Below are positions 22,081 through 44,018 of a stretch of 64,000 nt of DNA, in pieces; the first letter of the stretch is position 1, and every line of letters starts with the position of its first letter. The notes under the pieces are model-generated. The model searched no databases, was not told the origin of the DNA, and saw only the letters and a program-made list of their open reading frames with translations. Where the stretch lies: assembly GCF_002005465.1 (NCBI RefSeq), contig NZ_CP014691.1, forward strand, positions 620,001 to 684,000, written 5' to 3'. The translations under genes and the position numbers were made by a program. Source of the stretch: Neoasaia chiangmaiensis (lineage in GTDB: Bacteria; Pseudomonadota; Alphaproteobacteria; Acetobacterales; Acetobacteraceae).

Positions 22081-22899
22081 TCAGGTCAACATCGAGAACA
22101 ACGAGGCCGAAGACGCGCCGCCCGATTGTCCGAACAAGGACAGGATGCCAGCCGACCCGCCGCTGGCGCCGTACAGGGATAATGTGGTCGCCGGTGTACT
22201 CGTGGGTTGGGGATTGACCTGCAACATGGCGAGATAACGCTGCGCATACCGCTGGATGCCGGCCGGACTGCTGAAATCCTTCATGTTGATTTTCGGCGTG
22301 AGAAGACGAACCTGCTCATCGTAGTCCAGAGCGCCGAATTGAGTAGAGTCGAACCCGGACACCGTTTCAACAACATTCAGGAGCTTCGGATCGGCCATGA
22401 TCTGGCTGACGCTGCTGACGTTCGACATCGTACGGGTAAAATAAAGAGCATTGCCGACGCCGGGCGTTTCGGCCTGCTTGGCCGTCTCGAACTGATTCGT
22501 CATATATTTCTGCGAAATCTGGGCAATCGCCTCCGCGGACCCCAACGGTGACGGCGACCAGCTCGCGAAACTCTTGGCAAAGCTGAGCCATTTCGCGTTG
22601 CCGGACTTGCGTGCCAACGATGTCGGCGCATCCGGATCCTGGGTCAGAAGATCGCGCACAACAGCCGTCTGCCCCATAAGCGAGGACAGTCCATTCGCGC
22701 CAAGAACCACTTTCAGCGCCTTGTAATTGGCAAGGAGCGCCTTCGCGGAGTCGATCGTCGGTGCAGTCGCCCGAAATGCCGCCACCTCGTGCTGATCCGC
22801 GGGCACGGTCTGTTCGTAGCGCGAAACCGACGCGGCCTCGTTCCGAACGATGGTCAGGTATTGCGGAATGGCCGGCATTACCGAGAGGCTGGACGACAT
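22081..22899 (-). CDS. DUF1217 family flagellar protein
   Basis: A 272-residue protein resembling the DUF1217 family, found in alphaproteobacterial flagellar gene clusters (often next to flgF or fliI genes). Features include Y-L-T-I-V-R-N-E at residues 14-21, the central repeat-like helices with L-T-Q-D-P-D-A-P-T-S-L-A, and Y-M-T-N-Q-F-E plus Y-A-Q-R-Y-L-A. The usual single domain covers most of the protein. No other flagellar gene is in the window, so it is detached from the main cluster. GAGG lies ten bases before the ATG. A TTAA-N7-TTAA box lies about 50 bases upstream, which fits CtrA control of motility genes. Confidence 0.8.
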   Translation of the reverse strand: MSSSLSVMPAIPQYLTIVRNEAASVSRYEQTVPADQHEVAAFRATAPTIDSAKALLANYKALKVVLGANGLSSLMGQTAVVRDLLTQDPDAPTSLARKSGNAKWLSFAKSFASWSPSPLGSAEAIAQISQKYMTNQFETAKQAETPGVGNALYFTRTMSNVSSVSQIMADPKLLNVVETVSGFDSTQFGALDYDEQVRLLTPKINMKDFSSPAGIQRYAQRYLAMLQVNPQPTSTPATTLSLYGASGGSAGILSLFGQSGGASSASLFSMLT

Positions 22900-22948: not shown

Positions 22949-22963
22949 TTAACACGGCGTTAA
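22949..22963 (-). promoter_or_regulatory. putative CtrA box upstream of DUF1217 flagellar gene
   Basis: TTAA-CACGGCG-TTAA at 22949-22963 is an exact TTAA-N7-TTAA match, and the surrounding six bases form the inverted repeat CTTAAC/GTTAAG. It lies about 50 bases upstream of the DUF1217 start and about 104 bases upstream of the divergent ATP-grasp gene. CtrA controls flagellar genes in many alphaproteobacteria. Binding here is inferred, not shown. Confidence 0.55.
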
Positions 22964-41200: not shown

Positions 41201-42454
41201 ATGGACGCAACATTTTCCCTGCCCAAGGACAAGATCCGGATTCTTCTTCTGGAAGGCATCCATGAGAGCGCGGTTGCTCATCTCAACAGTCAGGGGTACC
41301 ACGAGGTAACCCGCCTGAAGACAGCGCTGGACGGCGATGCCCTGCGGGATGCACTTCGTGGCGTGCACATGGTCGGCATCCGTTCCCGCACGCAGCTGAC
41401 GTCCGAAATGATCGAAGCCGCCGACCGACTGATGGCGATCGGCTGCTTCTGCATTGGCACCAACCAGGTTGATCTCGACGCCGCAAGAATGGCCGGAATT
41501 CCCGTGTTCAACGCTCCTTTCAGCAACACTCGCTCCGTCGCCGAACTGGTGATGGGCGAAATCGTCATGTTGCTGCGCCGCATTCCGTCGCGCTCCGAAG
41601 AATGCCATCAGGGCGGCTGGGATAAATCGGCTGTCAATTCATGGGAGGTGCGAGGCAAGACGTTGGGCATCGTCGGCTACGGCTCGATCGGCTCACAACT
41701 TTCCGTCCTGGCCGAAGCGTTCGGCATGAGCGTGATCTATTACGATGTTCAGGACAAACTGCCGCACGGCAACGCAAAGCCCGTTGAAAGTCTGGAGGCT
41801 TTGCTGGCCCAGTCCGACATCGTCAGTCTCCACGTTCCCCAGACCGAGCAGACACGCAGCTTGATCGGGGAGAAGGAAATTCGGGCCATGAAGCCGGGCT
41901 CCATTCTCCTGAATAACGCCCGCGGCACTGTTGTCGATATCGACGCTCTCGCCGCGGCCCTGAAGGATAATCATCTGATGGGCGCTGCCATCGATGTGTT
42001 TCCGGTCGAGCCCAAAGGCGCGGGCGATCGTTTCGAAAGCCCGCTGCAAGGCCTGCCGAACGTTCTGCTGACGCCGCATATCGGCGGCTCCACGATGGAA
42101 GCGCAGGAGCGTATCGGCGTCGAGGTCGCACGTCGCCTCGTGGAATATTCCGACGTCGGCTCGACGGTCGGCGCCGTGAATTTTCCGATGGTCCAGTTGC
42201 CTGAACGCCCACGCGGCACGCGCTTCATGCACGTGCACCACAATCGCCCCGGCATCCTGCGACAGATCAACGAACTGTTCGCGCAGGAAGGGTGCAACAT
42301 CACCGGACAATTCCTCCAGACGGACGGCGATCTCGGCTATGTCGTCGTCGAAACCGATGCCGGACCGGACCTCGCGCTGGATCAACGCCTGCTGGAAAGC
42401 CTCCGTCATCTCGATGGTACCTTGCGCGCACGTCTGCTGTATCAACGAAGCTAG
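41201..42454 (+). CDS. serA: D-3-phosphoglycerate dehydrogenase
   Basis: First step of serine synthesis, oxidising 3-phosphoglycerate with NAD. The 417-residue protein has the Rossmann motif G-Y-G-S-I-G-S (about residue 160), A-R-G-T-V-V-D-I-D-A (about 240), the catalytic H-I-G-G-S near 290, and a C-terminal ACT domain beginning H-H-N-R-P-G-I-L-R-Q-I-N-E for serine feedback. The length matches the E. coli-like short form. The ATG at 41201 follows GGGAG by seven bases, inside a hairpin. comM follows after about 55 bases with its own CtrA-type box. Confidence 0.96.
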   Translation: MDATFSLPKDKIRILLLEGIHESAVAHLNSQGYHEVTRLKTALDGDALRDALRGVHMVGIRSRTQLTSEMIEAADRLMAIGCFCIGTNQVDLDAARMAGIPVFNAPFSNTRSVAELVMGEIVMLLRRIPSRSEECHQGGWDKSAVNSWEVRGKTLGIVGYGSIGSQLSVLAEAFGMSVIYYDVQDKLPHGNAKPVESLEALLAQSDIVSLHVPQTEQTRSLIGEKEIRAMKPGSILLNNARGTVVDIDALAAALKDNHLMGAAIDVFPVEPKGAGDRFESPLQGLPNVLLTPHIGGSTMEAQERIGVEVARRLVEYSDVGSTVGAVNFPMVQLPERPRGTRFMHVHHNRPGILRQINELFAQEGCNITGQFLQTDGDLGYVVVETDAGPDLALDQRLLESLRHLDGTLRARLLYQRS

Positions 42455-42469
42455 GAAAACCCAGGCTTG

Positions 42470-42485
42470 TTAACCACTCCTTAAC
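42470..42485 (+). promoter_or_regulatory. putative CtrA box upstream of comM
   Basis: TTAA-CCACTCC-TTAAC at 42470-42485 is a full TTAA-N7-TTAAC match, 24 bases before the ATG at 42510. CtrA is the alphaproteobacterial cell-cycle and motility regulator, and in Rhodobacter capsulatus it controls competence genes including comM. Binding here is inferred from the sequence match. Confidence 0.6.
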
Positions 42486-42509
42486 CCTATGCGATGGAGA
42501 CTGGGCGGC

Positions 42510-44018
42510 ATGTCGAATGCCGCCCCTGCTCCCGTCGCTCCCGCCGTTGCTCGCATCCAGAGCTTTGCCTTCGTCGGAATCGACGCGGTGCCGGTTACGG
42601 TGGAAGTGCAGATTGCCAGCGGACTGCCGGCGTTTTTAGTAGTGGGCCTCGCTGACAAGGCCGTCGGCGAAGCGCGGGAACGGGTTCGTGCCGCCTTGAC
42701 GGCGCTCGGACTGGCCCTGCCGCCGAAGCGCATCCTGATTAATCTGGTTCCAGCCGACCTGCTCAAGGAAGGCGCCCATTTCGATCTGCCGATCGCTCTC
42801 GCCCTGCTGGTCGGCATGGGCGTCATCCCGCACGAAAGCGCCTATGCCTACGCCGCCGTCGGCGAACTGTCGCTCGACGGACGAATCAACCCGGTCGCCG
42901 GCGTCCTGTCTGCGGCATTGGGCGCCGTGGAGAGCGACCTGGGCCTGATCTGTCCTGCTGCACAGGGTGCGGAAGCGCGATGGGCCGGCAGCGATCTCGA
43001 TATATTGGCCCCGAGGGATTTGCAGGCGTTGATCACGCATTTCCAGGGCCATCAGGTTCTCGATCCGATACCGGATCCCAAGCGTATTACCCTTCCGCCC
43101 TTACCGGACCTCGCCGATATTCGCGGCATGCCCGTTGGACGACGCGCGCTGGAAATCGCAGCGGCTGGCGGTCATTCGTTGCTGATGTGCGGCCCGCCGG
43201 GAGCCGGGAAGTCGATGCTCGCAGCCCGCCTGCCGTCGATCCTTCCCGATTTGACGCATGAGCAGAAGCTGGAAAGCAGTCGCATCCATAGTGTCGGCGG
43301 TCAATTGCCCGGCGGCATGCTTGTCTCCCGGCCGCCATTTCGTGAGCCGCATCATTCCGCCACACTTGCCGCCCTCGTCGGCGGGGGCGGAAAGTCACGT
43401 CCGGGCGAAGTCAGTCTGGCCCATCATGGTGTTCTCTTCCTGGACGAATTTCCGGAGTTTTCCCGCGCCTGCCTCGAGGCGCTTCGCCAACCGATCGAGA
43501 CCGGTCGTATGACCGTGGCGCGCGCCAGCCAGACGGTCACGTATCCAGCACGCTTTCAACTGATTGCGGCCATGAATCCGTGTCGGTGCGGCTATCTGGG
43601 GGATCCGGAACGACAATGTCGCAAGGCACCGCGTTGCGGCGAAGATTACGCCGGCAAGATATCAGGGCCGATGATGGACCGGATTGACCTGAACGTGACC
43701 GTCCAGCCTGTTTCCCCTCTTGAAATCAGCCGCTCCGCCCGGGGTGAAGACAGCGCGACCGTCCGCATGCGCGTCGCAGCGGCGCGCGAGCGCCAGATCG
43801 TGCGGCAGAACTGCTGCAACGCCGAAGCGGACGCCACCGCCTTTGTCATGACGGATGCCGCTCGCGAAACTGTCGAGCATGCAGCGGAAAAATTGCGACT
43901 ATCGGCTCGCGGCCTGACGCGCCTGTTGCGCGTCGCCCGCACGATCGCCGACCTCGACGAAAGCGAGGCGCTGGAACATCGTCATGTCGCGGAAGCACTT
44001 GGATTTCGGCGACGATAG
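42510..44018 (+). CDS. comM: YifB/ComM family Mg-chelatase-like AAA ATPase
   Basis: AAA+ helicase that promotes branch migration during natural transformation in species where it was studied. The 502-residue protein has an N-terminal Lon-C-like domain (R-I-Q-S-F-A-F-V-G-I-D near the start and L-P-A-F-L-V-V-G-L-A), Walker A G-P-P-G-A-G-K-S-M-L, Walker B H-H-G-V-L-F-L-D-E-F-P-E-F, and a C-terminal Mg-chelatase-type segment with a small Cys-rich region (N-P-C-R-C-G-Y and C-R-K-A-P-R-C). The ATG at 42510 gives the usual N-terminus; an ATG at 42489 would leave the start within 4 bases of the CtrA box. It ends seven bases before the convergent metC. Confidence 0.93.
   Translation: MSNAAPAPVAPAVARIQSFAFVGIDAVPVTVEVQIASGLPAFLVVGLADKAVGEARERVRAALTALGLALPPKRILINLVPADLLKEGAHFDLPIALALLVGMGVIPHESAYAYAAVGELSLDGRINPVAGVLSAALGAVESDLGLICPAAQGAEARWAGSDLDILAPRDLQALITHFQGHQVLDPIPDPKRITLPPLPDLADIRGMPVGRRALEIAAAGGHSLLMCGPPGAGKSMLAARLPSILPDLTHEQKLESSRIHSVGGQLPGGMLVSRPPFREPHHSATLAALVGGGGKSRPGEVSLAHHGVLFLDEFPEFSRACLEALRQPIETGRMTVARASQTVTYPARFQLIAAMNPCRCGYLGDPERQCRKAPRCGEDYAGKISGPMMDRIDLNVTVQPVSPLEISRSARGEDSATVRMRVAAARERQIVRQNCCNAEADATAFVMTDAARETVEHAAEKLRLSARGLTRLLRVARTIADLDESEALEHRHVAEALGFRRR

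Follow-up and report, generated by a model that had tools for sequence, protein, structure and literature searches.

We found that the comM and dprA genes of Neoasaia chiangmaiensis are each preceded by a predicted binding site for the cell-cycle regulator CtrA, and that comparable sites precede both genes in related acetic acid bacteria. These promoter sequences most likely reflect a CtrA control of the DNA-recombination arm, comprising comM and dprA, that arose at the root of the acetic acid clade. In this way, acetic acid bacteria probably couple the processing of imported DNA to CtrA, as in Rhodobacter. The predicted sites extend the range of CtrA-controlled DNA-uptake genes from Rhodobacterales, where such control has been described, to acetic acid bacteria, and no earlier report of such control in the latter group was found in the open literature searched.

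CtrA-type Box Upstream of comM

The window, i.e., the whole 64-kb stretch of DNA that was analyzed, carries comM downstream of serA (Table 1). Inspection of the sequence agreed with the original prediction of an exact full CtrA site (TTAA-N7-TTAAC) directly before comM. The further statement that this box lies 24 bases before the comM start, within a short serA-comM spacer, holds with the likely ATG at 42510 and with the TAG stop codon of serA ending at 42454, and the box starts 15 bases beyond this stop codon. If translation began instead at an in-frame ATG at 42489, 3 bases would separate the start from the box; the start at 42510 was preferred because the spacing between box and start is kept in relatives.

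Table 1. Coordinates of the genes and CtrA-type boxes discussed here (window positions, or the locus identifier where one is given)
Feature	Position	Strand	Basis or remark
CtrA-type full box, TTAACCACTCCTTAAC	42470..42485	+	TTAA-N7-TTAAC, upstream of comM; conserved in relatives
serA, phosphoglycerate dehydrogenase, upstream neighbor of comM	41201..42454	+	PRK11790
GGAG, possible ribosome-binding site for the comM start at 42510	42496..42499	+	sequence
comM/yifB, Mg-chelatase-like AAA+ ATPase, 502 aa	42510..44018	+	ORF; TIGR00368, 502 bits (cut-off 362)
Second exact TTAA-N7-TTAA of the window, between divergent genes for DUF1217 (-) and ATP-grasp (+) proteins	22949..22963	+	DUF1217 gene starts about 50 bp away
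DUF1217 protein gene, start adjoining the second box	22081..22899	-	domain match
dprA	G000:C1:245133-246254	-	
ctrA	L007:1618-2343		adjoining fliI
Exact box before motB	L005:1501-1515		37 bp before the gene
Exact box before a GGDEF protein gene	L012:1501-1515		17 bp before the gene

Exact TTAA-N7-TTAA sites occurred twice in the window against an expectation of 0.04, and 14 times in the 3.41-Mb genome against 15 for a reversed-pattern control. The CtrA-type motif is without genome-wide excess in N. chiangmaiensis; therefore, the single comM box, taken alone, is not significant and not decisive without comparative data, and it is the relatives that settle its case. Apart from the comM box and the four sites by fliI-ctrA, motB, a DUF1217 gene, and a GGDEF protein gene described below, the genome sites are located near unrelated genes and may be background.

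Conservation of the Box in Related Genera

DNA upstream of comM was gathered from more than 120 Acetobacteraceae genomes. Exact TTAA-N7-TTAA preceded comM in 5 of the 41 acetic-acid-clade genomes, representing four genera, compared with a mean of 0.09 and a maximum of 1 in 300 shuffles, a control that, like the one used for dprA, ignores the relatedness of the genomes. With up to one mismatch, the count rose to 20 of 41 (shuffle mean 1.6, maximum 5), including G223, G291, and G180, whose mismatch sites stand at another distance and are probably due to chance. Exact TTAA pairs at any spacing other than N7 were found in at most one genome each. The original prediction had named non-conservation in close relatives as an argument against it; the box is instead conserved in related genera, at the N7 spacing and above the shuffled level.

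The exact boxes were TTAACCACTCCTTAA in this genome, TTAACCACCGCTTAA in G047, TTAACCGCGCCTTAA in G036, TTAACCGGCGTTTAA in G055, and TTAACCATGCTTTAA in G283, with the genera of G047 and of G036 represented by one genome each. One-mismatch boxes near the same place were identified in G022, G078, G250, G249, G355, G371, and G311, among others, and CtrA binds sites one base off the consensus in Caulobacter (PMC11264516). Additionally, G398, G334, and G410 retained TTAACCA before comM with a degraded second half-site. The distance from the comM box to the likely start codon was 22-25 bases in most genera and about 44 bases in genus g56.

dprA as a Second Gene with the Box

The dprA gene, for which the original prediction had proposed a scan as a possible co-target, is located elsewhere on the chromosome than comM and proved to have a box of its own. 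In this genome the dprA box (TTCACCGGTTGTTAACC) has one mismatch and ends 25 bases before the ATG, and one-mismatch boxes were also present in G078 (TTAACCACACCTTTACC) and G022 (TTAACTGCCTGGTAAGG). Exact dprA boxes were identified in seven g54 genomes, where all eight half-site letters are invariant and six of the seven spacer letters vary. An exact N7 box preceded dprA in 7 of 30 genomes against 0.013 in shuffles, and exact pairs at other spacings were absent except for two at N10. Taken over both promoters, comM/dprA promoter DNA totaling 6.4 kb contained 11 exact sites, compared with 2 for the 374 kb of further DNA from such loci, including the site between fliI and ctrA. By genome, eight had boxes before both genes, nine before neither, and seven before one only, an association that is weakly significant (p 0.047) and uncorrected for phylogeny.

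The import genes comEC and comF, which had been expected to share CtrA control, gave a different picture. No box with up to one mismatch was found before comF in this genome and the relatives scanned, or before comEC in this genome, and the relatives provided one doubtful comEC site (G249). An indirect control of comEC and comF by CtrA is possible.

ctrA and Other Boxes in the Genome

A ctrA gene, whose absence had been named as grounds for rejecting CtrA control, is present next to fliI. CtrA was the best NCBIfam match of its product at 318.6 bits, which is below the 350-bit cut-off of a model named for Rhodobacterales. This is the one CtrA-like match at E<=1e-45 in the genome, and several CtrA-like regulators occur in other family members, e.g., G032.

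The 14 exact sites include one between fliI and ctrA and those before motB and the GGDEF protein gene. The second exact box of the window adjoins a gene for a protein with DUF1217, a domain usual in alphaproteobacterial flagellar gene sets, so that the gene is presumably flagellar. Motility and c-di-GMP genes are targets of CtrA in other alphaproteobacteria. Flagellar genes of Dinoroseobacter shibae, for instance, have CtrA sites (PMC4046655). The set of fliI-ctrA, motB, DUF1217, and GGDEF boxes resembles these motility and c-di-GMP targets of CtrA elsewhere. Within ~50 bp upstream of ctrA, a different block resembling CAACCTTGGGTGGTAACCnTTnnTCAACAA is also kept across acetic acid genera (ctrA loci L125-L131), perhaps for autoregulation.

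Comparison with Known Systems

CtrA has been linked with comM, comF, comEC, and dprA in Rhodobacter capsulatus (titles of Brimacombe 2014, 2015, as cited in PMC10883770), and the com genes of D. shibae have predicted CtrA sites (PMC6473078). Five named Rhodobacterales-type comM loci likewise had near-consensus CtrA sites, e.g., TTAACCATTCCTAAA. The acetic acid bacteria resemble the control of competence and GTA reception in R. capsulatus in that comM and dprA are linked to CtrA, here by predicted sites, and differ from it in that comEC and comF are without a box. The TTAA-N7-TTAA(C) consensus is shared with the CtrA regulon of Caulobacter crescentus, as are flagellar genes among the likely targets, whereas comM and dprA were not met as targets in the C. 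crescentus CtrA literature covered.

Proposed Mechanism and Alternatives

TTAA-N7-TTAA is the binding sequence of phosphorylated CtrA, which in most cases activates from the -35 position (PMC11264516). Observed here are the sites, their exact N7 spacing and kept position, their restriction to one clade, and the ctrA gene; that CtrA binds, activates instead of repressing, and thereby serves DNA uptake is our inference. Phosphorylated CtrA would bind both TTAA half-sites upstream of comM and dprA, most likely at -35, and would activate these genes along with flagellar and motility genes. In CtrA-active cells, the single-stranded DNA that comes in would then be handled by ComM, a branch-migration helicase, and DprA, a RecA loader, and the import genes comEC and comF would stand outside direct CtrA control. 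We consider it quite probable that the box is a CtrA binding site working in this manner and that the wiring was gained once.

The same box could instead serve repression, in which CtrA covers the promoter core of comM and dprA and thereby silences both in CtrA-active cells; CtrA is known to repress as well as activate (PMC11264516). The short distance of 22-27 bases between the box end and the start codon in most genomes fits this proposal, as do ribosome-binding-site-like sequences (GGAG here and AGGAG before dprA in G249), which imply a leader and place the box nearer to -10 than to -35. However, most CtrA-activated promoters of Caulobacter have a single site, at -35 (PMC11264516), and leaderless transcripts, if they occur here, would make the spacing fit -35. 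The recipient genes are CtrA-dependent in Rhodobacter, judging by titles cited in PMC10883770, and activation is favored because of this precedent, so that repression appears rather unlikely.

Two further alternatives concern the box itself. A different regulator that recognizes AT-rich sites of this kind, e.g., an OmpR-class CtrA paralogue or MucR, might use it, or it might be a chance AT run in the spacer or a side effect of the serA stop codon. Another regulator is conceivable given the several CtrA-like regulators of family members such as G032, yet it seems very improbable: the N7 between two TTAA half-sites is the published CtrA consensus (PMC4046655, PMC11264516), this genome has its single CtrA-like match, and the box is also present by ctrA and fliI. 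Chance would accord with the equality of the genome-wide count and its control, and in G047 and some g54 species the first half-site does include the serA stop codon. In this genome, unlike those, the stop codon ends ahead of the box; the conservation across genera, the enrichment at comM and dprA promoters, and the occurrence of the same box before dprA, which does not adjoin serA, make an accidental origin hardly credible.

Distribution and Evolutionary History

In a 53-row ComM tree, all box carriers fell into one clade (support 100/96), consisting of the acetic acid group together with G055 and G070, and no comM box with up to one mismatch was found in the 18 rows outside this clade (other Acetobacteraceae and the outgroup). 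In a 100-genus sample, ctrA was found in the carriers and likewise in most non-carriers. Loss of the box does not track loss of ctrA, as most box-less members of the clade retain the gene. The two promoters (comM and dprA), with genera named that have or lack the box, allow direct natural-variation and knock-out tests.

Across the class, an exact comM CtrA box was present in 4 of 130 genomes (0 to 2 for other spacings), and most other families in this set were without one. An ancestral, class-wide link between CtrA and comM, which we considered as well, is not supported by these four exact boxes among 130 genomes. In the simplest history, the common ancestor of the acetic-acid clade and its sister lineage acquired the wiring once, apart from Rhodobacterales, and several branches later lost it. 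The carriers form a clade separate from Rhodobacterales, which makes an independent recruitment more likely than descent from a shared ancestral control. The original suggestion that CtrA-controlled competence is wider or older than usually described stands in its first part, with comM and dprA boxes outside Rhodobacterales, and finds no support in its second, given the single clade, the rarity across the class, and the LexA box of Rhizobiales. The finding of dprA as a second, independent putative target strengthens the CtrA reading, and the claim of age is weakened, with no sign of an ancient link.

LexA-type Boxes Before comM

Named Rhizobiales comM loci (L048-L122) served as a contrast. Most of them had a LexA-type GTTC-N7-GTTC box at about -60 to -200, and the CtrA box was mostly absent; in the class-wide set, the LexA-type box preceded comM in 9 of 130 genomes. 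The comM of the acetic acid clade is like the LexA-controlled comM of other alphaproteobacteria in probably combining a global regulator with a short bipartite promoter box, and unlike that of Rhizobiales in having a CtrA-type box at the place of GTTC-N7-GTTC. No LexA-type box was found before comM in this genome or in the acetic acid clade, and control of comM by LexA/SOS was rejected there on this basis.

The proposal that alphaproteobacterial comM and dprA have been repeatedly rewired between LexA (SOS) and CtrA, with the acetic acid clade as an independent CtrA gain covering the recombination step and not the DNA pore, seems to us evenly balanced. These patterns suggest that comM, by changing masters between LexA and CtrA, offers a tractable case of regulatory rewiring. 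At one locus (L410 of G480), the comM promoter had both a LexA-type and an exact CtrA-type box, and this double-box promoter is a possible intermediate of rewiring.
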